Assembly: GCA_013813355.1 (NCBI GenBank)
Contig: JACCRT010000011.1
Span: forward strand, 1 to 49,506
From: Acidobacteriota bacterium
GTDB lineage: Bacteria > Acidobacteriota > Vicinamibacteria > Vicinamibacterales > 2-12-FULL-66-21
Direction of reading: 5' to 3'
Length of the DNA: 49,506 nt
Of this stretch, positions 797 through 47,534 are shown one piece after another. Within the stretch, counting starts at the first letter, position 1, and each line of letters opens with the position of its first letter. The notes below the pieces were generated by a model. The model ran no database searches. It was given only the letters and a program-made list of their open reading frames with translations, and had not been told where the DNA came from. Both the position numbers and the translations under genes were made by a program.

Positions 797-2837
797 GCGA
801 GCCGCGTATGTCTATGTCCGGCAATCCAGTCTGCAGCAAGTCCGTCATCACCGCGAAGGCCAACAACGGCAATACGGACTCGCCGAGCGGGCCCAGCACT
901 TGGGCTTCGCTCGAGTGGTCGTGATCGACGACGATTTGGGCACGAGCGGCACGGGGCGAGTCGCGCGTCCGGGGTTCGGCCGGCTGCTCACGGCGGTGTG
1001 TGAAGGGACGGTCGGCGCGGTGTTGGCGTTGGAGGCGTCCCGCCTGGCACGCAACAATCGCGACTGGCATCATCTGATCGATCTCTGCGGCATGACCGAG
1101 ACGCTGCTGATCGACGACGACGGGATTTACGATCCGCACTTGATCAACGACCGGTTGCTCTTGGGCTTGAAGGGCACGATGAGCGAATTTGAGCTCAGTC
1201 TGTTTCGCCAGCGGGCCCGCCAAGCCTTCGAGCAGAAGGTCAAGCGCGGATGTGTGCTGTGGGAAGTGCCGGTGGGCTTCGTGCGCACGGACGAGGATCG
1301 CGTCGACAAGTCACCCGATCGGCAAATCCAACACGCGATCCAAAGCGTCTTCCAGAAGTTTCGCGAACTGGGGAGCGCCAGACAAACCATGTTGTACTTT
1401 CGCGATGAGCAAATCCGACTGCCCGAGGTGGTTCCGGGGACCGGCGGCAAGGACGTCGTGTGGCGATTGCCCACCGGGAGCCGTATCCGTCAAATCCTCC
1501 GCAATCCCCAGTATGCCGGCGCGTTCGCGTACGGTCGGACCGGCACCACGACGGTCATGACCGACGGACGGGGCAGCACCGCGCGGCGCCGCAAGAAACA
1601 CCCTGAGGAGTGGACGGTCTGTCTCCGGGACCACCATGAGGGGTACATTACGTGGGACGAGTATCTGCACACGCAACGCATGCTGGAGGCGAACGTGTCC
1701 CGACGAGAAGCTCCGCAGGCCGGGGCGGCCAAGCGCGGGGCCGCGATGCTCTCAGGCTTGTTACGGTGTGGGCGGTGTGGGCGCAGGCTCTTTGTGGCCT
1801 ATAGCGGTTCTCACGGACAGGTGCCGCGCTATGCGTGTCACGGCGGTCGCGTGGATCGCGGGTCCGCGACCTGCCTCTCCATCGGGAGCCTGCGTGTGGA
1901 CCGGGCCGTGATCGACCAGGTGTTCGACGCGATCCAGCCTGTCGGTCTGCAGGCGGCCCTGGACACGATGGACGAGGCGCTTCATGACGACGAGACGAAA
2001 CGCCACGCGCTCGAACTGGCGTTGGAGAAGGCGCGGTATGAGGCCCGACGAGCGCGGCGTCAATTCGATGCCGTGGACCCGGAGAACCGCTTGGTCGCCA
2101 GCGAGTTGGAGCAACGCTGGAACCAGTCGCTCGCGCAGGTGTCCGAGTTAGAGTCCCGCGTCCACCTACTCCGCGAGACCTCGGCACCGTTGACCGAACG
2201 CCAGCGGGCACGGCTGCTGGAACTGGGAACGGATCTGCGCGAGCTGTGGCAGCATCCCGCCGCTCCCGTGGAACTCAAGAAACGCATCCTCCGAACGGTG
2301 CTCGAAGAGATCGTCGTGGCCACCACTGACGAGCCGCCGCACAATGTCCTCCACCTGCATTGGAAAGGCGGCGTGCATACGGAGCTTCGGGTCGCCCGCA
2401 ACGGGACCGGCCAGCACGGACGCGTGGCGGATGACAAAGCCGTCGAATTGATCACGGAGCTGTCAAAAATCTGCGACGACAAAACGATCGCCGTTGTCCT
2501 CAATCGCCTGGGGTACCGGACCGGGCAGGGCCAGACCTGGCGCGTGCATCATGTCTGGAACGTGAGATATTGTCGGCGACTCCCCAACTATCGCCACGAT
2601 GGAACCTGGTTGCCATTGGAAGCCGCCGCGCGCGAGCTCGGCGTCAGCAATACCGTCATCAAGAACCTCATCGCCGACGGCGTGTTGCCTGCGACGCAGG
2701 TCGTCAAGTGTGCCCCGTGGGTGATTGCGCGCGTCGATCTGCAACGACCCCCGGTGCAAGCGCGCATCCAAGCTGTCCACGACGGCCGCAAACTGCCACG
2801 CCCGATCCGGGGACAAGACGAATTGCCTCTGAAATAA
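759..2837 (+). CDS. Large serine recombinase (resolvase domain plus recombinase domain plus zinc beta-ribbon plus coiled coil)
   Basis: N-terminal YVYVRQSSLQQVRHHREGQQRQYGL (catalytic Ser), LALEASRLARN, GTMSEFELSLFRQRA, recombinase region IRQILRNPQYAGAFAYGR, Zn ribbon LSGLLRCGRCGRRLFVAYSG...YACHG. Confidence 0.93.
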   Translation: MKMTEKIRTEHLERAAYVYVRQSSLQQVRHHREGQQRQYGLAERAQHLGFARVVVIDDDLGTSGTGRVARPGFGRLLTAVCEGTVGAVLALEASRLARNNRDWHHLIDLCGMTETLLIDDDGIYDPHLINDRLLLGLKGTMSEFELSLFRQRARQAFEQKVKRGCVLWEVPVGFVRTDEDRVDKSPDRQIQHAIQSVFQKFRELGSARQTMLYFRDEQIRLPEVVPGTGGKDVVWRLPTGSRIRQILRNPQYAGAFAYGRTGTTTVMTDGRGSTARRRKKHPEEWTVCLRDHHEGYITWDEYLHTQRMLEANVSRREAPQAGAAKRGAAMLSGLLRCGRCGRRLFVAYSGSHGQVPRYACHGGRVDRGSATCLSIGSLRVDRAVIDQVFDAIQPVGLQAALDTMDEALHDDETKRHALELALEKARYEARRARRQFDAVDPENRLVASELEQRWNQSLAQVSELESRVHLLRETSAPLTERQRARLLELGTDLRELWQHPAAPVELKKRILRTVLEEIVVATTDEPPHNVLHLHWKGGVHTELRVARNGTGQHGRVADDKAVELITELSKICDDKTIAVVLNRLGYRTGQGQTWRVHHVWNVRYCRRLPNYRHDGTWLPLEAAARELGVSNTVIKNLIADGVLPATQVVKCAPWVIARVDLQRPPVQARIQAVHDGRKLPRPIRGQDELPLK

Positions 2838-2873
2838 CGTGCCTTTGAAAGGTGGGTATTATGCCGACACGCT

Positions 2874-3743
2874 CCGCAGCGTGTGGCAGCTCGCCCGCTT
2901 CGAGATGTCCGCGGCCAGCACCGCCCCGTGGAAACCTCGCTGGACGACGCTCTCGTGGAGGTGATGCCGCCGGCGCTCCCCGGTGGCGGCGTCGCGGTAG
3001 TGCCGCGTCGCGGGGAACACCCACTGCCACGCCCATTCCCGGTTCGCGCTCGGATACTTGACCGCGAGGCCGTCCGGCAGCGCCACCGTGCCGTGTCCGG
3101 CCTGCAGATCGGCCTCGTGCTGCTGGCGGACGGCGTCGAGATGGCCGCCCAGCCGTGTGACGACGGACCGGGGCAGCACGGTCACGCGGTCCTTCCGCCC
3201 CTTGCCGTCGCGCACGCGAATCTCCCCGCGCGACAGATCGATATCCTTCACCCGCAGCGTGAGCCCCTCCAGCAGCCGCAAGCCCCCCCCGTAGAGCAGC
3301 TCGCACACCAGCCGTACGGGGTCCGGCAGACGGTTCAGCACCGCCGCCACCTCCTGCCGGGTGAGCACGACCGGGAGCCGCACGGGACGCAGGGCCGGGA
3401 CCAGGCCGCTCCCCCACTCAGACCCCTGCCCGAGCACCTCGCGATACAGGAACAGCAGGGCGCTCATCGCCTGATTGTGCGTGGAGCCGGCCACCTTCCG
3501 CTGGCCGGACAGATCCATCAGGAACGCCGCGACCTCACGCTCGCCCATCTCCCGCGGATGCCGCTTGCGGTGGAACAGGATATACCGCCGGATCCACCCG
3601 ACGTAAGCCTCCTCGGTGCGGCGGCTGTAATGTCGGGATCGGATCGCCAGGCGGACGCGATCGAGCAGCTTGGGGGCAGGGGCGACATCGGACACGCAGG
3701 CGGCCGTTGCCAGCGGCGTGCCGCCTGGAATTGCTCGGAACAC
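2874..3743 (-). pseudogene. intI: N-terminal 290 aa of integron-type tyrosine recombinase (IntI), truncated at CHTLR by the inserted element
   Basis: LLDRVRLAIRSRHYSRRTEEAYVGWIRRYILFHRKRHPREMGEREVAAFLMDL...; IntI-specific extra region WQWVFPATRHYRDAATGERRRHHLHESVVQRGFHGAV; ends ...KRASCHTLR then foreign SVSA*. Confidence 0.92.
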
Positions 3744-4183
3744 GCCGCCCGGGCCCAGCCTCTGTTGCAGTTACTGCGACGAACGCACAAACGCCGGGTC
3801 GCATCGATTGCGATCGCTGACCAGCCTGAAATCCTGCGGCGACGGGCGCGACGACCGTCGGCGACAACGGCGAACACACCGCTGGCCTCTCGGTCACAGG
3901 CGCCCGGCGCCACGCACCCCGCGCGGAGCCACTGTCCCCCCGCGAGATTCCGCGGGCGTGCTGCTGGATTCGGCGGCATCCTCCCACGGGAACCATTGAG
4001 GTGCGAGCCGAAACGTAATCTCTGTCGGTAGGTACTTTGGTCCCTCGACGGGATCGCACAGCCGCGCACGCATTTGATCCCGGCCTCGCCGGCGGGATTG
4101 TCGATGCGCAGTTCGAAGTCCGGCAGGGGCGCCTGCGCCCTCCACCCCGACCACCCGAATCCGACCAGCGAAGACCGGTCGCG

Positions 4184-35164: not shown

Positions 35165-38100
35165 TCAACGGACGACGATCGCGGTGCTGTCGGTCACTAC
35201 GCCGGCCGTTCCCCCGTCCAGCGTCAGCGTCACGGGATACGTGCCTGGCGTCCGGTAGATATGCTGCACCGTCACACCCGTGGAGCCCGCGCCGAACACC
35301 GGAACCATGGTGTTGTCGTTCTTCAGGCTGCCGGGTGCGGCGCTGAAATGGGCCGCCGCGCTGATGACGATCTGGTCGATGCGGAGTCCGTCCTCCCGTT
35401 GCTGGATCCGGATGGTCTGGACGCCGTCCTGGTTGAAGTAAATGGGTGGCGCAAGCCCCCCATAATCCGCATCCGCCCAGCCCCAGCCACTGAGTCCGGC
35501 CCCGTGCCCCTCTTCGAGAATGACCGACTGCGCGCCGGTAGTGCCAATCCGGGTGACGGCCGCACCCGAGGAGCTGACCGTGCCGCTGAACTGCACGAAG
35601 ATGGAATCGTTGGCCCACGCATCGTTTGCGGCGCGCATGCGGACCCACAGGCGGTAGGGCACGCCGGCCGCGGCGCGAAACGTCGCCTCGACGTAGCTGG
35701 TGGGATTGGCCGCCGCCGTCGAGAGCTTCGAGGAATTGGCCAGCGGATTTTCGAGCGCAGTGCCGGACGCAGCGGTGGCGTCTGAAATCTTCCGCCACCG
35801 GGAGCCAACGGCGGTGAATATCGGCGCCTGCAGCACGATCTCCTCGCCGAACGTCCACCGGTACTGCGCCGTCACCCCGGCCGGGACGCTCGAACCACTC
35901 CCGTCGAACCGGGTTGCCTGACCGACCACTCCTTCATAAGGCCCGCCGGCCTGCGCGACCAGAGCCGTCGAGGACACGGGGGCGCCGACCGTCACCGTGG
36001 TCATCGCCCAGCCGACGGCGCCCTGTGCATCAGCCACCGTCAGGACGAGCGGGTAGACCGCGGCGGTCTTGTAGGTGTGGGATCCGGTCATTCCCTCGCT
36101 CGAGCCGAAGGATCCCGGCACGATGGTGGTATCCAGCTTCGTCGCGCCGGGCCGGCGCCCGAAGAACTCGCCGGAGCTCAGGACGATCTGGTCCCACATC
36201 ACGCCATCCTCCCGCTGCTGGATGCGAAGTGTCTGCAGGCCGGAGGTGGCGAAATAGACCGGGGCGCCCAGGGCCGTACCGCCGTACGCCGAATCATTCC
36301 AGCCCCAACCCGAGACACCGGCTCCGTTGCCTTCCTCCAGGACGACAATCGCCGCACTCGCCGACCCGATCCGATGGATCGCCTGCCCCTGCGCGTTCAC
36401 GCTCCGGTCGAACTGCACGAACAGTGAATCGTTGTTGTAGTGATCGTTCTGCGCGCGCATCCGGAGCCACATCCGGTAGGGCACGCCAGCCGCCGCGTAG
36501 AACTGCACGTTGACGTAGCTGCCCGGCGAGGCCAGTGGCGAGTCCTTCTTGTTGGCCTCTCCCTTGTCGGGATTGTGAATGGCCCAGCCGCCTGCCGCGC
36601 CGGGCGCCTGCACCCGGCTCCAGCGAGTCCCGACGATGCTGCCAGCCGGGACGTCCGCGGCGTTGATGAGGATCTCGTCTCCCCACGTCCATTGATAGGC
36701 GGCGATCGGCCCTTCGGCGTCGGATGACGCGCTGCCGGTGGTCACGACCGTGGCGCCCGCCGCGACGGTATACGGGCCGCCCGGCCGCGCGATCGGGGGC
36801 GTATTGGCCGTTCCGCCGTCGTCGGGAGGAGGCGTGGGAGCAGGCTCGGAAGGCGGCGGGGTCGCCGTTCCTGCCAGCGCGGCGTTCAGGACACCCATGT
36901 CCGCGCCCGGCATGGAGCCTCCGGCGCCGGCGCTGATGAAGACGCTGGTGGACTTCAGCCGGTAATCGCCCGCTGCGAGATCGACGAATGACGCCTTCCA
37001 CTGCTCCACCGTAGGAAACGCATTCGGCGTCGGGTACGCGGACGCCGTCCCGCCGGCAAGCACGTTATTGGTGACCGTTCCATCGGGAAAGTACAGATCA
37101 ATGGAGTACTGACCGGGCCGTCCGTTGTCCGCCATGATCCCGTAGGCGTGGTGCTGCGAGATGTTGTTCGTGTACACGAAGCCGAGCATCTTCAGCTTCC
37201 CGTACGCGAAAGCGACCGAACTGTTGGTGTGGATGAGCGTGTTCCTATCGATGACGACGTCCGCCGCGCCCTCGCCGATCAAATATGCCTTGGCGCTGCC
37301 GCCCCAGGTCGCCGGATCTATCCCGTGGAAGAGGTTGTTTCGCAGCGTAACGCGCTGTGTTTGCTGGCTCGGATAGTTGTTGTCGTAACCGACGACCTGC
37401 ATCACGCCGGAGGCGTTGCGGATGATGTTGCTGCGAATCATGACGTCGCGCACCCGCGTCCAGGTCGCCTTGCCGTCTTGGTTGCGCGGCGTCAGCATCA
37501 GGGCGTAGCCCGCTTGCCCGGCCTGCCAGACGTTCTCCATCACGTTGCCTTCGATGAGCACGTGCTCGGCGCTCTTGAGCTCGAGCAGGTTCTTTACCGT
37601 CCATTTCGTGCCGGACGCGGGCGGCGTCCCGGACTTTTCACTGTTGGCCGTGTAGGTGAACGAGGTTCCGGATCCGGCCGTTTCGAGAAACACCCCTTGC
37701 GTGCTCGCCGAGGAGCCGCGGTAAATGCGATACCGATCCGCGCCGCTGACCGCCGTCCACGTGAGCGCTGCCGACTGGTTGGCCGAGACCGTGACGCCGA
37801 CCGCCGTGGACGGCGCGGAGACCGCGGTGGCGGCGGCGGTCCCCATGACCGCCACAACCCTGAAGTAATGGGTGCCGGCCGACAGCTTGCCCGCGGTGCT
37901 CGAGGCCGACCCCTTGGGCGAGGCCGGGACCGCGAGAATGGGCTGGCGCCAGGCGAGCGGCTTGTAGAGGTGATTGCGCCTGATCTCGATATTCGAGGGC
38001 ACCAGCCCCGTGATCGCGGGATCCGAGCCACCGAACATGATGTTTTCGGCCGCCCCCTCAATGTAGTTGTTGATGATCCGGAAGGGGCCGGGACCGTTGT

Positions 38101-38749
38101 ATCCGGCGATGCCCTGGGAATCGAAACCGACCGCTTTGACATCTGAGATGTACGAGTTGAGCACGTCGGTGTGGGCGCTGTTGAGGGCGATCCCGCGCTT
38201 CATGCCCTTCTGCGCGTGCCCATGCGCGTAAACCCGGTCGATGACGATGTGGGACGCGGTGGCGTTGGCCGTATCGTCGCCGATCGCAATCAGCGTCTCC
38301 CACCCGAGATTCGCGACGCCGTCGATTTCCAGAAAGCGCAGGATGTAGCGCTGTGCCCCTGACTCGGTCCGAACAACCGGTGTCGTCTTGAGCGTCCCCC
38401 CTTGCCCGACGAGCCGCGGCAGCAGCGACCGCTGGGTGGTCGCTCCCGGCTTCCCGGAAGGGACGAGCCGAACGCCCTCGCCGGGCAGCAGTGAGTCGGC
38501 CGTATCGGTGCGGATCGTGATCCACTGAGTGGATGAAGCCTTGCGGCGCAGCACGAAGGGGCCGACGAAGGTTTCGCCTGCCTTCAGCAGGATCGTGTCG
38601 CCGGGCGCCGCGGCGTCGATCGCGGCCTGGAGACCTGAATATTGGCAGCCACTCGCGCAGACCCGGCGCGTCTCCGCGCCTGCCGGGACCGCCAGCCCGG
38701 CGACACCAACAGATACGAACAGGACAAACGTCAGGGTACGGGGGGGCAA
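35165..38749 (-). CDS. Secreted right-handed beta-helix protein with FN3-like insert and two PKD domains each interrupted by a WGWxD module
   Basis: Signal peptide MPPRTLTFVLFVSVGVAGLAVPAGA; CQYSGLQAAIDAAAPGDTILLKAGETFVGPFVL; KRGIALN; NGPGPFRIINNYIEGAAENIMFGGSDPAI; modules with GAGVSGWGWNDSAYGG and GAGLSGWGWADADYGG. Confidence 0.9.
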   Translation of the reverse strand: MPPRTLTFVLFVSVGVAGLAVPAGAETRRVCASGCQYSGLQAAIDAAAPGDTILLKAGETFVGPFVLRRKASSTQWITIRTDTADSLLPGEGVRLVPSGKPGATTQRSLLPRLVGQGGTLKTTPVVRTESGAQRYILRFLEIDGVANLGWETLIAIGDDTANATASHIVIDRVYAHGHAQKGMKRGIALNSAHTDVLNSYISDVKAVGFDSQGIAGYNGPGPFRIINNYIEGAAENIMFGGSDPAITGLVPSNIEIRRNHLYKPLAWRQPILAVPASPKGSASSTAGKLSAGTHYFRVVAVMGTAAATAVSAPSTAVGVTVSANQSAALTWTAVSGADRYRIYRGSSASTQGVFLETAGSGTSFTYTANSEKSGTPPASGTKWTVKNLLELKSAEHVLIEGNVMENVWQAGQAGYALMLTPRNQDGKATWTRVRDVMIRSNIIRNASGVMQVVGYDNNYPSQQTQRVTLRNNLFHGIDPATWGGSAKAYLIGEGAADVVIDRNTLIHTNSSVAFAYGKLKMLGFVYTNNISQHHAYGIMADNGRPGQYSIDLYFPDGTVTNNVLAGGTASAYPTPNAFPTVEQWKASFVDLAAGDYRLKSTSVFISAGAGGSMPGADMGVLNAALAGTATPPPSEPAPTPPPDDGGTANTPPIARPGGPYTVAAGATVVTTGSASSDAEGPIAAYQWTWGDEILINAADVPAGSIVGTRWSRVQAPGAAGGWAIHNPDKGEANKKDSPLASPGSYVNVQFYAAAGVPYRMWLRMRAQNDHYNNDSLFVQFDRSVNAQGQAIHRIGSASAAIVVLEEGNGAGVSGWGWNDSAYGGTALGAPVYFATSGLQTLRIQQREDGVMWDQIVLSSGEFFGRRPGATKLDTTIVPGSFGSSEGMTGSHTYKTAAVYPLVLTVADAQGAVGWAMTTVTVGAPVSSTALVAQAGGPYEGVVGQATRFDGSGSSVPAGVTAQYRWTFGEEIVLQAPIFTAVGSRWRKISDATAASGTALENPLANSSKLSTAAANPTSYVEATFRAAAGVPYRLWVRMRAANDAWANDSIFVQFSGTVSSSGAAVTRIGTTGAQSVILEEGHGAGLSGWGWADADYGGLAPPIYFNQDGVQTIRIQQREDGLRIDQIVISAAAHFSAAPGSLKNDNTMVPVFGAGSTGVTVQHIYRTPGTYPVTLTLDGGTAGVVTDSTAIVVR
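35295..35850 (-). repeat. WGWxD module copy B (nested in PKD 2)
   Basis: EIVLQAPIFTAVGSRWRKI...YVEATFRAAAGVPYRLWVRMRAANDAWANDSIFVQFSG...WGWADADYGG...IRIQQREDGLRIDQIVIS...LKNDNTMVP. Confidence 0.85.
36114..36680 (-). repeat. WGWxD module copy A (nested in PKD 1)
   Basis: EILINAADVPAGSIVGTRWSRV...YVNVQFYAAAGVPYRMWLRMRAQNDHYNNDSLFVQFD...WGWNDSAYGG...LRIQQREDGVMWDQIVLSS...TKLDTTIVPG. Confidence 0.85.
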
Positions 38750-38811
38750 GGGCGGCTCCGGAGGAATGGGGTTGGGGATGAAAGGAACGAAGTCGAGATG
38801 CTGGCGCCCGG

Positions 38812-38827
38812 CGCAAACCCGCGGCCA
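38812..38827 (-). promoter_or_regulatory. Sigma-54-like -24/-12 element TGGCCGCGGGTTTGCG upstream of the 38749 gene
   Basis: TGG-N8-TTGC pattern with correct GG-N10-GC spacing, 62 bp upstream of ATG. Confidence 0.5.
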
Positions 38828-39119
38828 ACGTGTTTCCCCCCGCCTTTTGGGATGTATTCATCTCCGCTGACCCACACGGTCCCCGCCGTGCACCAATTCA
38901 CAACTCAGCCTTTTGTAGCTTTTACCACCAGGCGACTGCTGGCCCGTGGATCACGCCACATTCTGGTATGTGCTCACTGTCAGGTTCGCGAGTGACGTAC
39001 ACCTACCGCCTTACAAACATGTAATCAACTCGCCAGAGCCGTAATCGGAACCCGGGTGAAGTGAGACTGACACGGACAAAAGCGCTAATCATTCTGCAGA
39101 TCCGTAATCTGCGCGCCAG

Positions 39120-39135
39120 TGGTATCTCGATTGCC
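39120..39135 (+). promoter_or_regulatory. Sigma-54-like -24/-12 element TGGTATCTCGATTGCC upstream of the secreted EEP gene
   Basis: TGG-N8-TTGC pattern with GG-N10-GC spacing, ~114 bp upstream of ATG 39249. Confidence 0.5.
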
Positions 39136-39248
39136 TCGGTCTCATGGAACCGGCCTCTGACTCGCACCGCCGGCCTTTACACGACGACAACTGACTGATC
39201 GCGCGCTATCTCGGGGACGAGGTGCGCCGAACCAACCGGAGGGGATCC

Positions 39249-41087
39249 ATGGCGGTATTGGTGTGCCTGCGCGGCTGCGCGGGGGTGGTGATAACCGGTT
39301 TGGCGCTGTTGCTCGTGCTGCCGGCTTCGGCCGCGGCACAATCGAACGGCGCCTTCAAAGTCGCGTACTACAACATCAAGTCGGGAAAGGGGCAGATCGG
39401 CTTGAGCGGTGTGGCGACGTTCTCTGACACCGCAAACTGCACCGATGCCACCAAGCCGCTGAACGCCTGGGCCACCGGGTTGGTCCAGCAGCATCTCATT
39501 GCCAGTATCCGCAATGACCCCTCTGTCGTCGCGCTTGGGCTCGGCGAGGCGTGGGCGAGCGTCTGCGGCTCACCGGAGAACGTCCGCCAGGCACTCGGCT
39601 GGAAGTCGCGCAGCAGTGAGCGCAACGGCGTGGCGATGGTGGCGAAGCACGGCTTCTCGGGCCCTGAAGAATGGGTGCAGCTCGACACGTCGCTGAACAC
39701 CAACCAGGCCGACACCATGTGGGTCCTCAAGCGGGACGTCTGCCTCGACGCCGCCTGCTCCCAGTCGATCCCGGTTTTCGTGGCGCACTGGTACGGCAGC
39801 GGCACCCAGGGTCTGACCACTTACGACCGGCAAGCACAGCAAACCGTCGATTTCCTGAAACGAGCGGGCGGGGACAACCCCCACGTGCTCATCGGGGACC
39901 TGAACGTCTGGGAAGGCACTTCCACGGTCTGTAACCAGTCCCCGAACAATACCTCGCTCGCGCCGCTGCGCAGCGCCGGATATCTCGACGCGTGGCCGCT
40001 GTTGCACGGTACGGCCGAAGGCTTCACCGGGATGGTGAACCGCAATGGCTGCGGCAACCCGATCGGGTATACCTGGAAGCGTATCGATTACGCATGGTCC
40101 CCCGGGTGGTTTCCGCCGCTCTCCATCGCCCGATTCGGCATGGTGACGCCCGGCCTCGAAGCGCCCTCCGACCACTATGGAATCATCGCCGAGTATACAA
40201 TGCCGGGTGTGCAGGCGCCGGTAGACAGCGTGGCGCCCATCGTCAGGATCCTGTCGCCGGTGAGCGGGTTCACGACTGTCGGAACGCCAGTCGACATCCT
40301 CGTGGATGCGACCGACGACCGCGGCGTCGCACGGGTTGAGCTGCTCGAGAGCGGCGTCGTCGCCCACACGCTGACCGTCGCGCCCTTTCAGGTCACCTGC
40401 ACGCATCTCACTGTCGCAGCCGGTACACGCTCGCTGGTGGCGCGAGCCTTCGATGCGGCTGGCAACATGGCGACGTCCGAGACGGTGCAACTCGTAGTCG
40501 AGGCTCCCAATGCGCCGCCTGCTGCGGCCGAGATTTTGATCACGGCCGACGCAGTGACGGCGCTCGCGGGCGGATGGCGGCTGCTGTCGGACTCGAGCGC
40601 TGCCGGCGGCGTGGCCCTGGGCCATCCGAACGCAGGCGCCAAGACGGTCAACAAGGCGCATCCGTCCCCCGCGCACTATGTCGATCTCACCTTTTACGCC
40701 GAAGCCGGGCGCGCCTATCGCCTGTGGATCCGGGGCCGTGCCGACAACGACCATCCGGACAACGACTCGGTCTTCGTGCAGTTCGACCGTTCGCTCAACG
40801 CGTCCTTGAAACCGGCGGTCCGGATCGGATCGCCCAACGGCTATATCGTGAACCTCGAAGAGGATACGAACCGCGGGCTGGCTGGCTGGGGGTGGCAGGA
40901 TAACGGTCAGGGCGCAGGCGTCCTGGGCCCGCTGGTCTACTTCGAAGCCACCGGGCCCCAGACCATCCGCGTCCAGACCCGTGAAGACGGCTTCCGATTC
41001 GATCAGATCGTCCTCTCGTCCGGCAAATATCTGACGAGCCCACCGGGCTTGCTCAAGAACGATACGACCATCCTCGGCAAGCAGTAA
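39249..41087 (+). CDS. Secreted EEP-fold protein plus Ig-like domain plus C-terminal WGWxD module
   Basis: SD ggagggg then MAVLVCLRGCAGVVITGLALLLVLPASAAAQ signal peptide; YYNIKSGKG, LGLGEAWAS, FVAHWYG, LIGDLNVWEG, APSDHYGIIAEY (EEP residues); Ig-like VRILSPVSGFTTVGTPVDILVDATDDRGVARVELL; module C 40524-41084. Confidence 0.9.
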   Translation: MAVLVCLRGCAGVVITGLALLLVLPASAAAQSNGAFKVAYYNIKSGKGQIGLSGVATFSDTANCTDATKPLNAWATGLVQQHLIASIRNDPSVVALGLGEAWASVCGSPENVRQALGWKSRSSERNGVAMVAKHGFSGPEEWVQLDTSLNTNQADTMWVLKRDVCLDAACSQSIPVFVAHWYGSGTQGLTTYDRQAQQTVDFLKRAGGDNPHVLIGDLNVWEGTSTVCNQSPNNTSLAPLRSAGYLDAWPLLHGTAEGFTGMVNRNGCGNPIGYTWKRIDYAWSPGWFPPLSIARFGMVTPGLEAPSDHYGIIAEYTMPGVQAPVDSVAPIVRILSPVSGFTTVGTPVDILVDATDDRGVARVELLESGVVAHTLTVAPFQVTCTHLTVAAGTRSLVARAFDAAGNMATSETVQLVVEAPNAPPAAAEILITADAVTALAGGWRLLSDSSAAGGVALGHPNAGAKTVNKAHPSPAHYVDLTFYAEAGRAYRLWIRGRADNDHPDNDSVFVQFDRSLNASLKPAVRIGSPNGYIVNLEEDTNRGLAGWGWQDNGQGAGVLGPLVYFEATGPQTIRVQTREDGFRFDQIVLSSGKYLTSPPGLLKNDTTILGKQ

Positions 41088-41089
41088 AA

Positions 41090-41120
41090 GAAAGGCTGGG
41101 GTCCGGGACCTCAGCCTTTC
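41090..41120 (+). terminator. Stem-loop downstream of the secreted EEP gene
   Basis: GAAAGGCTGgGGTCC-g-GGACCtCAGCCTTTC, then T/C-rich sequence. Confidence 0.65.
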
Positions 41121-41255
41121 GTCCCTTTCAAGGACCCGTGGTCCAGTCCAGGTTGACATCAAGAGCGCTCTTGGTATCCTCAGCCCTGCACGAACAACCG
41201 AGTAGTCGCGGGAGATGCCACGGGGGCGGGCCGCCGACAGACCCGGAGGGTTCCA

Positions 41256-43645
41256 ATGACGGCGGGGATCTATCTGCGCGCCGACGCGTTGATGATTGTC
41301 AGCTTCTCCATGGTCCTCGCCACGCCGGCCGCGGGAGCCGCGCAGGCGAATGGCGCCTTCAAGGTCGCCTCCTACAACATCAAGTCAGGCAAGGGACAGG
41401 TTGGCCCTGTCGGCGAATCGACCTTCTCCAACACGGCCAACTGCACGGACGCGACGAAGCCGTTGAACGCCTGGGGCGTGGGGCTGGTCCAGCACCATCT
41501 CATGGCCAGCCTCCGCGACGATCCCTCCGTGGTCGCCCTCGGCCTGGGCGAGTCGTGGGCGAGCGTCTGTGGATCGCCAGAGAACGTCCGCCAGCGCTCG
41601 GGTGGAAGGCGCGTTCCAGCGAACGCAACGGCGTCGCCGTGGTCGCGAAGCACGGCTTCTCCGGTCCTGAGGAGTGGGTGCAGCTCGATACGACCCTCAC
41701 CGACAATCCCGCCGACACGAAATGGGTACTGAGGAGGGACGTCTGCCTTGATGCGGGATGCTCACAATCCATTCCGGTATTCGTAGCCCACTGGTGGAGT
41801 AGCATCGGCCCCGATGAAATAACTACCTATGATCGCCAGGCGCAGCAGACAGTCGACTTCCTGAAGCGGGCGGGCGGCGACAAACCGCACATGCTGATTG
41901 GCGACTTGAACGTCTTCGAGGGCCCCAAGTCGGTCTGCACGCAGCCCCCGAACAATTCCTCGCTTGGATTCCTGCGCGCCGCGGGATACAGGGACGGATG
42001 GCCCCTGCTGCACGGCACCGCCGAGGGGTTTACCGGGATGGTGAACCGCCCCGGATGCGGCAACCCGGTCGGCTACGCCTGGAAGCGGATCGACTACGCC
42101 TGGTCGCCCGGCTGGTTCCTGCCGATCTCCATCACGCGGTTCGGCGTGGTCCCCGCCGGCCTCGAAGCGCCCTCCGACCACTACGGGATCATCGCTGAGT
42201 ACCGATGCCTGGCCTCCGAGCACCCACCGACACAGTGGCGCCCGTCGTCAGGATCACATCACCGGTCGGCGGGATCGTGACGACAGGGACACCGCTGACG
42301 ATCACGGTCGACGCGACAGACGACGTGGGCGTGACGCCGGTCGACGTGCTCGAGAATGGCGTGGTCCGGCACACCCTGACAAAGGCGCCCTTCCAGGTCA
42401 CCAGCACCACGCTCACGGCCACCGCGGGCACGAAGACGCTGTCGGCACGCGCCTACGACGCAGCGGGCAACATGGGGACATCGGAGACGGTGCAGATCAT
42501 CGTCGAAGCGCCGGCTCCGCCCGCCGGCGTGGGTGAAATCGTCCTCCATACCAGGAACGCCACCCGGATAGTGGGCAACTGGCAGCTCGTCTCGGACACC
42601 ACGGCCGCCGGCGGCGCGCGCCTGTGGAATCCGGACGCCGGCCTTGCCCGGCCGAGTACGGCGCTGGCCCAGCCGGCCGACTACTTCGAACTGACGTTTC
42701 AGGCGGAAGCCGGGATGGCCTACCGCATCTGGATGCGGGGGCGAGCCGACAAGAACCATTGGGCCAACGACTCGGCGTTCTTCCAGTTCACCGGCACCGT
42801 CACGGCAGCAGGTGCGCCCGTGTACAGGATCGGAACGACCAGCGGCACCTGGCTGAGCGTGGAGGCGTGCTCTGGCTGCCCGTTGCGCAACTGGGGCTGG
42901 AACGACAACGGCTACGGCGGACCGGGCCCGCTGCTCTATTTCGGCACCTCCTACGCAGACGGTCCGCGTCCAGCGGCGCGAGGACGGCCTTGCCATCGAT
43001 CAGATCGTCCTGTCGCCGGCGCAGTACATCGTGACACCGCCCGGGGCAGCCGCTGACGACGCGACCATCCTTGCGGCGACCGGCACAACAACATCCCCGC
43101 CCGGGGGCAATGCCGCTGAGATTGTGATGACCGCCGCGGCGATGAAGACGCTTGCGGGGGGCTGGCGGATTCGAGCGCCGCCGGCGGCGCGGCGTTCGGC
43201 CATCCGGATGCCGGCGCAGCGAAGCTCAACACCCCGCTGGCGGCCCCCGTGCATTACGTCGAGCTGACATTCCATGCCGAAGCCGGCCGGACGTATCGGC
43301 TATGGCTCCGCGGCCGCGCCGACAGGGATCACTGTGTTCGTGCAGTTCGACAAGTCCGTCAACACGTCGGGACAGGCGACGGCGCGAATCGGCACCACGA
43401 GCAGCTATACCATCAACATGGAAGAGGACCGCGATTGGGGGCTGGCCGGATGAGGGTGGCAGGACACGGGTTACGGCGCAGGTGTTCTCGGTCCGCTCGT
43501 TTCGTTTGCCAGCACGGGAACTCAGACCATTCGCATCCAGACCCGGGAAGACGGCCTTCGAATCGATCAAGTCGTGCTGTCGTCCAGCACGTATCTGCAT
43601 AGCGCGCCCGGTGCGCTGAAGAACGACGCGACGATTCTCAAATGA
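41256..43645 (+). pseudogene. Decayed tandem paralogue of the secreted EEP/Ig protein, with two WGWxD modules
   Basis: Same domain order as 39249-41087; frame changes near 41594, 42203, 42955, 43172, 43337 and an in-frame TGA at 43451 (GLAG*GWQD versus GLAGWGWQD). Confidence 0.88.
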
Positions 43646-43889: not shown

Positions 43890-45818
43890 GTGCCCATGCC
43901 CTATCGGTTGCTGCTGTATCCGCTGTATTTCGTCGTCCTGCTCGGCGCCCTGCCGACGGATGCGTTTACCGAAACCGTGCTGGTCCGCTCGGGTGACAAC
44001 CTGCAGACAGCGCTCAACGCCGCGCAACCAGGGGACACGATCCTCCTCGAGGCCGGGGCCACGTTCAGGGGGAACTTCACGCTGCCGGTCAAGTCGGGCA
44101 ACCAGTTCATCACGGTGCGGTCGTCCGCGCCTGACTCGAAGTTGCCTGGGCCAGGCCGGCGGATGACGCCGGCCTATGCCGCGCAGTTACCGAAGATTGA
44201 GTCCCCTAACACGTCGCCAGCGCTGCACACCGTGCACGGGGCCCATCACTGGCGACTGCAGTTCCTCCACTTCCTCCCGACCCATCTAGGCTACGGCGAC
44301 ATCATCCGGATCGGAGACGGTTCCTCGGCACAGAACCTCCTCTCGCAGGTGCCCCACCACATCGAACTGGACCGCGTCCTGGTCCATGGTCATCCGCTGT
44401 ACGGCCAGAAGCGGGGCATCGCGTTGAACGGGCGCGACATCACGATCAAAAACTCCTACGTTGCCGACATCAAGGCTGCTGGCGCCGAAGCCCAGGCAAT
44501 CTGCGGGTGGAATGGTCCGGGCCCTTTCACCATCGAGAACAACTACCTCGAGGCCGCCGGCGAGAACTTCATGCTGGGCGGTTCCGATCCGGCGATCCCG
44601 AATTTGGTGACCTCCGACGTCACGGTTCGGTACAACCACATGTCGCGACCCATGGCCTGGAAGGAACCGATCATTCCGACGCCTGGCGCGCTCACGGCGA
44701 AGGCGGCGGCCGGAGGGGCTCTTGCCGCTGGCACGCACACCTACCGGGTCATCGCGCGACGACCGGTCGGCAGCGGCACGACCGGCCGCTCCACCGCGTC
44801 AGCCGAAACCACAGCAACGGTTGCCGCAGGCGGCGCGGTGGGGCTCTCCTGGAGCGGGGTCGCCGGGGCCACCGAGTACCGCCTCCACGTCCGACGACCG
44901 GATGGGTCGCAGGTGTACTGGACGACGACGTCACCGAGCTTTACTGACACCGGTGCCGGCGGAACTGCCGGGGCCTCGCCCATTGGCCCCGGGGATCGCT
45001 GGGTCGTGAAGAACATCTTCGAGTTGAAGAACGCCCGGCGTGTGCTCGTCGAATACAACGTCTTCGAGAACAACTGGCTTCACGGGCAGCCCGGTTATGC
45101 CATTCTCTTCACACCGCGCAACCAGGACGGCAAGTGCACCTGGTGCGTCGTCGAGGACGTGGTGTTCCAGTACAACATGGTGCGGAACAGTTCGGCTGGC
45201 GTGAACCTCACCGGGTACGACACACTGAACACGAGTCTGCAGACCCGGAACATCACGATCCGGCACAATCTCTTTTACGGCCTGACCTCGACGCTTGGCG
45301 GGAATGGCTGGTTCATGCTGATCGGCGATCAACCCCGCGGCATCGTGGTCGATCACAACACGATCGACGCCGACGGTACCGCGATCCTGTACGTCCACGG
45401 CGGGACCGCCGCATCACCGCGGCAGATTCTCGGATTCCAGTTCACGAACAACGCGGTGCGGCACAGCGCCTACGGGATCAACGGAGCGCACTTCGCCTGG
45501 GGCACGGGGATTCTGGACGGGTACTTTCCAGGCGCCACCGTCAACGGAAACTGGATGCAGGGAGGGACGGCGGCGCGCTACCCGTCGGGCAACCATTTCA
45601 GCGGGACGTTCGCGTCCGCATTCGTCGACCTGGCGTCTCGCGATTATCGCGCCGCAGCCGGCGGGATCCTCGCCGGACGCGCAACCGATGGGACGAACAT
45701 CGGGGCCGATGTGCCGACGCTGCTGCCTGCGCTTCAGCGGGTGCTGGACGGACACGCCGAAGGCCTCACGACCTCCCGGCCGACCACGCCGTCGAACCTC
45801 CGCGTGATCGTCAAATGA
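43890..45818 (+). CDS. Secreted right-handed beta-helix protein with FN3-like insert (paralogue 2)
   Basis: Signal peptide; GDNLQTALNAAQPGDTILLEAGATFRGNFTL; QKRGIALNGRDITIKNSYVADIKA; NGPGPFTIENNYLEAAGENFMLGGSDPAIPNLV; GYAILFTPRNQDGKCTW. Confidence 0.9.
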   Translation: MPMPYRLLLYPLYFVVLLGALPTDAFTETVLVRSGDNLQTALNAAQPGDTILLEAGATFRGNFTLPVKSGNQFITVRSSAPDSKLPGPGRRMTPAYAAQLPKIESPNTSPALHTVHGAHHWRLQFLHFLPTHLGYGDIIRIGDGSSAQNLLSQVPHHIELDRVLVHGHPLYGQKRGIALNGRDITIKNSYVADIKAAGAEAQAICGWNGPGPFTIENNYLEAAGENFMLGGSDPAIPNLVTSDVTVRYNHMSRPMAWKEPIIPTPGALTAKAAAGGALAAGTHTYRVIARRPVGSGTTGRSTASAETTATVAAGGAVGLSWSGVAGATEYRLHVRRPDGSQVYWTTTSPSFTDTGAGGTAGASPIGPGDRWVVKNIFELKNARRVLVEYNVFENNWLHGQPGYAILFTPRNQDGKCTWCVVEDVVFQYNMVRNSSAGVNLTGYDTLNTSLQTRNITIRHNLFYGLTSTLGGNGWFMLIGDQPRGIVVDHNTIDADGTAILYVHGGTAASPRQILGFQFTNNAVRHSAYGINGAHFAWGTGILDGYFPGATVNGNWMQGGTAARYPSGNHFSGTFASAFVDLASRDYRAAAGGILAGRATDGTNIGADVPTLLPALQRVLDGHAEGLTTSRPTTPSNLRVIVK

Positions 45819-45822
45819 CCGA

Positions 45823-47412
45823 TCACGGCTGCCGCTCCGCTGTCTTGAGAATGTCGGCGACCGCCGACATGACAGCCTCGACGTTGGCCCCCGCGCGCGG
45901 GGCTCCCGGTTTCGCGAGCAGCCCGCCCGGCGCCGGACGAAAATCGCCCTTCGCCGCGGCTACGAACATGCCTTCGAAGTCCCCGGCGTCGACAAACCTG
46001 TTGCCATCAGGGTAGCGCCGCGCGCTTCCGCCGGCGATCACGTTCCCCGAGAACACGGCGCCTGGAAAGAACGCCTCGAGCGAGTCTTGGCCCGGCGCAC
46101 GGTCCGCTCCGTGGACGCCGTAGGAATTGTGGCGGATCACGTTGCCACGGAAGACGAAGTTCTCGACCTGGCTGGGTGACTCCTTGCGGCCGCCGTACGC
46201 CATCACGATGTTCCCGCTCTGGCTGATGGTGTTGTTCTCGATCGTGACGTCGCGGGGGCCGTCCCCGATGAGTGCGAAAGCTCCCGTGCCGCCCCATTGC
46301 CGGGCATCAAGATCGTAGAACACGTTATCGACGACGCGGATGCCACGGGTCGGGCCGCTCGGATGGTTCGAATCTTCGCCGATGATCTGCATGCCTCCGC
46401 CGGCGTGACGTACCAGGTTTCGGCGGATGGTCACGTCCTCGACGGTGGTCCATTCGGCACGACCGTCCTGGTTGCGCGGCGACAAGACGATGGCGTACCC
46501 GACCTGGCCGTGCCGCCAGGAATACTCCATCAGGTTTTCCTCGACGAGCACCTTGCGGGCGTTCTTCAACTGGAACAGGTTCTTCACCACCCAGCGCTGC
46601 CCGCGCCATTCGAGCGGCTTTGACAGGTGATTGCGCCGAAAGACCACGTCTTCGGTCACCAGCCCAGGGATTTGCGGGTCGGCACCGCCGAGCATGAAAT
46701 TCTCCCCGGCGGCCTCCAGGTAGTTGTTCTCGATCCGGTATGGCCCCGGCCCGTTCCACCCGCCTATAGCCTGGCTGTCCTGGCCAATCGCCTTGATGCC
46801 GGAGATGTGCGAGTTGATGATGGTGGTGGCGCCGCTATTGAGGGCAATCCCGCGCTTCTGCCCTTTCTCCGGATCGCCGTGCATGTAGATGCGATCGATC
46901 ACGATGTCGCCCGGAACGCTCCCAAGGTCATTTTGAGAGGCGGCGCCCGTGCCGAGCGTCATGACATCGCCGAAGCCGTCCCGGATGGGCGGGAACTCGA
47001 GTAGTTCCAGCCTCCAGTGACGGGCGCCGGGCTCGGTGCGGAGCACCGGCTGGCGGTTCGCGGAGCGCAGCTTCGCGAGCCGGGCGGCGTGCTCGGGCCT
47101 GATGCGCTCGTCCTCGCCGGGGAGTCCGGTGTCACCCCCGGTTCTAATCGTGACGGGCCGCGGTGATCCCCCGGTATGTTTCTTTGCGCGCAGTGTGAAG
47201 TTGCCGACATACGTCGCGCCCGGTGCGAGCACGATGGTCGAGCCGGGCGCCGCGCGCTCGATCGCGTCCTGGAGGTCCCCCCCCTCCGGCACGTCGATGG
47301 TTCCCTGCAGGGCTGTGGGCGCCGACGCCGGTGCGGTCGCGGCAATCAGCGCGGCCGCTGCCGTGCAGACAATGCCAACGAGGAGCACTCGAACGAGTGA
47401 AGGCCGCGTCAT
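45823..47412 (-). CDS. Secreted right-handed beta-helix protein without FN3 insert (paralogue 3)
   Basis: MTRPSLVRVLLVGIVCTAAAALIAATAPASA signal; GGDLQDAIERAAPGSTIVLAPGATYVGNFTL; NGPGPYRIENNYLEAAGENFMLGGADPQIPGLV; GYAIVLSPRNQDGRAEW. Confidence 0.9.
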   Translation of the reverse strand: MTRPSLVRVLLVGIVCTAAAALIAATAPASAPTALQGTIDVPEGGDLQDAIERAAPGSTIVLAPGATYVGNFTLRAKKHTGGSPRPVTIRTGGDTGLPGEDERIRPEHAARLAKLRSANRQPVLRTEPGARHWRLELLEFPPIRDGFGDVMTLGTGAASQNDLGSVPGDIVIDRIYMHGDPEKGQKRGIALNSGATTIINSHISGIKAIGQDSQAIGGWNGPGPYRIENNYLEAAGENFMLGGADPQIPGLVTEDVVFRRNHLSKPLEWRGQRWVVKNLFQLKNARKVLVEENLMEYSWRHGQVGYAIVLSPRNQDGRAEWTTVEDVTIRRNLVRHAGGGMQIIGEDSNHPSGPTRGIRVVDNVFYDLDARQWGGTGAFALIGDGPRDVTIENNTISQSGNIVMAYGGRKESPSQVENFVFRGNVIRHNSYGVHGADRAPGQDSLEAFFPGAVFSGNVIAGGSARRYPDGNRFVDAGDFEGMFVAAAKGDFRPAPGGLLAKPGAPRAGANVEAVMSAVADILKTAERQP

Positions 47413-47509
47413 CGAAAGGTGAATGGGTGAACGTCCGGTTGCTACAGAACGCCGGGCACCCGGGCGGTGGTGCGGACTATACGCCGCATGCGCCCAAGGT
47501 GACCCGCCG

Positions 47510-47534
47510 ACGGGGTGCGGCGGCCGCACCCCGT
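47510..47534 (-). terminator. Strong stem-loop downstream of the small PEP-CTERM-like gene
   Basis: ACGGGGTGCGG-cgg-CCGCACCCCGT perfect 11-bp stem; no U-tract. Confidence 0.5.

Follow-up and report, generated by a model that had tools for sequence, protein, structure and literature searches.

The window, a 49,506-nucleotide stretch of the Acidobacteriota contig JACCRT010000011.1, holds five copies, on two strands, of a module of about 182 amino acids (A to E) that appears, from profile comparisons and a predicted structure, to form a separate, unnamed family in the CBM6/CBM35/GH115_C beta-sandwich class. The reading we prefer, at roughly two chances in three, is that this is a non-catalytic module for targeting, by which secreted phosphodiesterases and beta-helix proteins are fixed to a glycan of a surface or to an extracellular polymer. 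The module would tether secreted enzymes, most often those with PLD-like, EEP (endonuclease/exonuclease/phosphatase) or calcineurin-like folds, to a glycan or other extracellular polymer, and this tethering would concentrate the enzyme on its substrate or hold it near the cell. In the window, module C would tether one EEP-type enzyme, and A and B, which hang from PKD domains as loop insertions, would tether one beta-helix protein. Secretion is presumed from apparent signal peptides.

A search of the window's own genome with module C as the query recovered A (E 1.7e-48), B (6.7e-47), E (2.9e-43) and D (1.5e-34), and the sequence likeness among the five copies is far above chance. A sixth copy lies in a PLD-like protein on contig 48 (C48:19904-20440) of this assembly, which is incomplete (1.22 Mb, 57% complete). 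The original prediction had called five copies of about 180 residues; all are present, each within a few bases of its predicted position, and to them are now added the sixth copy and the interruption of PKD domains by A and B. The same prediction spread the copies over three proteins. Two of these are intact, one with A and B and the other with C, while the third, with D and E, is a pseudogene.

Modules A and B belong to an intact protein of 1194 amino acids (35165..38749, minus strand) composed of an apparent signal peptide, a beta-helix and two module-interrupted PKD domains. PKD domain 1 is encoded on the minus strand in two separated halves, an N-terminal half that runs up to WTWGD before A (36677..36805; PKD_4 profile 1-44) and a C-terminal half after A (SHTYKTAAVYPLVLTV; 35984..36118), with the 186-aa module A between them (36119..36676, minus strand). 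PKD domain 2, on the same strand, is divided into an N-terminal half that runs up to WTFGE before B (35843..35971; read from the joined flanks) and a C-terminal half (QHIYRTPGTYPVTLTL; 35168..35302; PF00801 positions 36-67), on either side of the 180-aa module B (35303..35842, minus strand). Joined without the insert, the flanks of A match PKD_4 over positions 1-85 of 85 (E 2.5e-16) and those of B over positions 5-80 of 85 (E 7.9e-15). As leaving out the insert brings back a full-length PKD match, A and B lie within PKD domains, one in each, and not beside them.

Three joined PKD-module units from two other genera likewise give a full-length PKD_4 match, and both PKD halves of the A unit are modelled by AlphaFold with a pLDDT of mostly 92-95. 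The six nested modules form one clade in the module tree (99, starred) and the A-type modules a subclade (97, starred), consistent with a single insertion, after which the PKD-module unit was duplicated as a whole. The flanks, once joined, thus make up a complete PKD domain (PF18911/PF00801), but the window protein differs from this family in carrying a whole second domain inserted after the WxWGD/WxFGD motif. To our knowledge, no PKD domain with such an insert has been described, and a literature search for a PKD domain with an inserted module returned nothing relevant. The PKD-nested form is a clear example from nature of one domain that accommodates another, complete domain in a surface loop.

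The 1194-aa protein has paralogues within the window. The three beta-helix genes (35165-38749, 43890-45818 and 45823-47529) encode proteins of 40-52% identity and flank the EEP genes in what looks like a secreted-protein cluster. Relative to the beta-helix protein of 45823-47529, the A/B protein has about 110 extra residues (269-379; 37613-37945, minus strand), a stretch of fn3- or Ig-like appearance within the beta-helix. The protein of 43890-45818 also has one.

Module C (182 aa; 40530..41075, plus strand) is intact and forms the C-terminus of an intact 621-aa protein (39222..41087, plus strand), in which it follows an apparent signal peptide, an EEP domain (Exo_endo_phos, E 2.3e-4) and a Big_7 domain (E 4.3e-10). 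The GDLN and SDHY motifs are both present in this protein. Downstream, 41232..43645 (plus strand) is a frameshifted relic that aligns with gene 39222-41087 at 71% nucleotide identity, the matches jumping through frames 1, 3, 2 and 3. It is a decayed tandem copy that formerly carried two modules in a row. Module D (42535..43072, plus strand) is broken by a frame change near 42951 and module E (43118..43639, plus strand) by frame changes and an internal TGA; because the gene is split over three frames and E contains this stop, neither can be translated as a whole module. Sequencing error was considered as the cause of the broken gene and judged unlikely: the breaks occur only in 41.2-43.6 kb, the genes on either side have open frames, and copy and neighbour differ by 29%.

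The window modules reached no family in Pfam or NCBIfam, the latter giving no match at all, and their description as uncharacterised in the original prediction therefore stands. Neither CBM6 (PF03422) nor CBM35 (PF18099, PF16990) matched single modules in Pfam at E values up to 1. The sole recurrent Pfam match, GH115_C (PF17829), was seen below cut-off in 7 of 18 single modules (best E 0.0033), with the window modules scoring at most 19.1 bits against a curated cut-off of 24.1 bits. Relatives score 24.5 to 44 bits, for the most part summed over the whole protein, the highest value being that of a three-module protein (L057), and alignment of the module with GH115_C by hhalign covered only 46 columns at a weak 10.6% probability. 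Because this profile link is weak, placement in the class relies on structure and on compact relatives.

The AlphaFold model of the module, built from 41 modules, has a mean pLDDT of 96.4 and a pTM of 0.92. Foldseek matched it to PDB structures of CBM35 (2wz8, E 3.8e-5), CBM6 (2cdp, E 9.5e-5) and GH115 (4zmh, TMq 0.57); 2wz8, 2cdp, 1gmm and 1ux7 fall at E 4e-5 to 1.1e-3, and CBM36 is among the matches. The likeness to CBM6/CBM35-type folds is moderate (TMq about 0.5, rmsd above 4), and PDB sequence searches with single modules and profile A1 gave chance matches only. In CBM6 and CBM35, an N-terminal E-x-E motif serves as a structural calcium motif. Compact relatives with an EAE motif of this type match module profile A2 (hhalign 97.3%, E 2.4e-11), and one of them also matches CBM_6 at 7.7e-5. 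The compact proteins concerned (L080, L081 and L082), all of which look related to the family, are small secreted proteins of about 180 amino acids from Deltaproteobacteria, Armatimonadota and WS1; all share the C-terminal IRIQNREDGxxxDQ signature with the module, and the EAE is intact in L080 and L081.

The original idea of a jelly-roll, carbohydrate-binding-type domain is thus borne out for fold and family, the model matching CBM35, CBM6, CBM36 and GH115_C structures. No match turned up to any established CBM or discoidin family that shares the motif, nor did a literature search for the module itself return anything relevant. The module shares its beta-sandwich class with CBM6, CBM35 and CBM36, to which the compact EAE-bearing relatives link it, but it is about 50 residues longer than CBM6 (about 182 against about 130), has extra conserved loops around WGW, and lacks both the EAE motif and a significant Pfam match. 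With GH115_C it has in common the fold and the best recurrent Pfam profile; in contrast to that domain, however, it occurs without a GH115 catalytic domain, is shuffled among other enzymes, and carries NDS, WGW and REDGxxxDQ signatures that are missing from GH115_C. CBM96 (PF24517), which adjoins the module in one protein (L079), is a separate domain to which the module shows no match. Known though the fold class is, no name was found for the family; the module would add an undescribed binding-type family to the CBM6/35/GH115_C class.

Across 93 modules, the near-invariant residues include W66, R68, N78-D79-S80, Q84, W120-G121-W122, R147, Q149, R151-E152-D153-G154 and D158. The EAE motif is not found in these modules, the aligned positions 5 and 7 being mostly Y/H/W and A/S. 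A CxxC pair is present in 49 of the 93, mostly as CSGC directly before WGW (positions 112-115 in module C numbering), and may form a disulfide or bind metal in a subset that does not include A, B and C. The WGWxD region aligns, weakly, with the GH115_C loop of BoAgu115A in which Glu-782 to Tyr-792 lie. This loop lines the xylan cleft, and the Y792A substitution lowers activity 100-fold (PMC3879575). The correspondence is a lead only.

The partners of the module are striking. Phosphoester-hydrolase domains occur in 32 of the 49 module proteins scanned (17 PLDc_2, 12 Exo_endo_phos, 2 Metallophos and 1 PF04185 phosphoesterase), and the remainder include beta-helix, GSDH and subtilase (S8) proteins. 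Neither a glycoside hydrolase nor a GH115 catalytic domain was found among the 25 commonest families of these 49 proteins or in the proteins scanned singly, and the scanned partner proteins had no polysaccharide lyase. Such phosphodiesterase partners, like the PKD nesting, are unusual. They link the family with secreted phosphodiesterases and not with glycoside hydrolases, in a phylum about whose secreted enzymes little is known. Copies are N-terminal, C-terminal, tandem or nested, up to three per protein, with Ig, PKD, TIG, Big or fn3 domains as neighbouring spacers.

Because the 49 module proteins are not independent, a tree was built, on which the partner has to change 13 times for PLD, 10 times for EEP and 8 times for beta-helix; the starred, well-supported branches require no fewer than 6, 4 and 3 of these changes, respectively. 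The link to phosphodiesterase folds therefore had more than one origin. Within the bacterial family of the window, a true CBM6 is found on a PLD-like protein (L093), and on an EEP protein (L097) one occurs alongside the module, which suggests that CBM6 and the module do similar work. CBM6 proteins number about six in this family, too few for statistics as a partner control, and are far outnumbered by modules.

A scan of 84,980 species genomes returned 62 loci, nearly all from uncultured Acidobacteria. The module is present in 7 of 12 genomes of the window's bacterial family, one of which has as many as 15 matching stretches, and in 5 of 297 genomes across the phylum at E 1e-10. By these counts, the family is an expansion in one lineage, scattered elsewhere and almost confined to Acidobacteria. 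No relative was found in the viral contigs scanned, so spread by phage is unsupported. Outside the Acidobacteria, a Candidatus Kerfeldbacteria contig (L077, 3284-4867, plus strand) encodes a module at 39% identity on a pseudopilin-like protein (GFTLLEMVVYISIF N-terminus), between genes whose sequences read as PilC and PilM/PilN/PilO. This would possibly be a pilus-borne binder in a CPR bacterium, within an apparent type IV pilus operon.

Fold class, partner shuffling, the CBM6 swap on similar enzymes and the enzyme-free use on a pseudopilin all argue for a targeting role. Against it stand the absence, in the partner proteins scanned, of the usual CBM partners, glycoside hydrolases and polysaccharide lyases, the lack of an EAE motif, the weak alignment with GH115_C, and a fold class that also holds domains that do not bind sugars, to which the structural likeness is moderate. 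Since the partners are mostly phosphoester hydrolases, the ligand may be a phosphate-bearing polymer. In its broadest form, which we consider rather doubtful, this idea is that the module serves mainly to bring PLD-like and EEP-type phosphodiesterases to phosphate-bearing polymers of the soil, such as extracellular DNA or phosphoglycans, that shuffling has spread it repeatedly in Acidobacteria, and that it is also the pilus-borne binder of the CPR bacterium.

Unlikely, too, is a module that binds not a neutral glycan but extracellular DNA, teichoic-acid-like polymers or phospholipid surfaces and so brings phosphodiesterases to their own substrate. The bias of the partners is as this would have it, the PLD-like part of the own-genome copy has cardiolipin hydrolase and Nuc endonuclease as its nearest solved structures, and the invariant R68, R147, R151, Q84 and Q149 could contact phosphates. 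However, the module is also found on beta-helix, GSDH and S8 proteins that have no phosphodiester link, the substrates of the partner enzymes are putative, and the invariant acidic residues E152, D153 and D158 speak against a simple phosphate site.

That the module is no free-standing binding unit but a structural or dimerisation domain, on which folding or the completion of a partner's active site depends, has a precedent in the C-terminal domain of GH115, the Pfam profile closest to the module. In BoAgu115A, activity is lost when this domain is removed, and the domain forms part of the substrate cleft wall in the other protomer (PMC3879575). The repeated changes of partner, the presence of up to three copies in one protein, the placement behind long Ig or Pro-rich linkers and the enzyme-free copy on a pseudopilin make this distinctly improbable, because such behaviour is not expected of a domain that serves to complete a single active site. 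Protein-protein adhesion or surface retention, in which modules bind one another or the envelope of the cell that makes them, would suit C-terminal placement behind linkers, tandem copies and the pseudopilin context, but is very unlikely, since glycan binding is favoured both by the fold class and by the exchange with CBM6 on similar enzymes.

A literature search for nuclease-CBM fusions returned nothing relevant. Within the PLD-like proteins, a motif scan found no canonical HxKxxxxD; the HxK is kept and the Asp replaced. Pfam gives two PLDc_2 stretches in each despite this replacement, and in four of these partners (L001 at 1893-3905, minus strand, L035, L033 and L050) HxK is present in both halves, as in LHWKMMLF and LNHQKSTIL.
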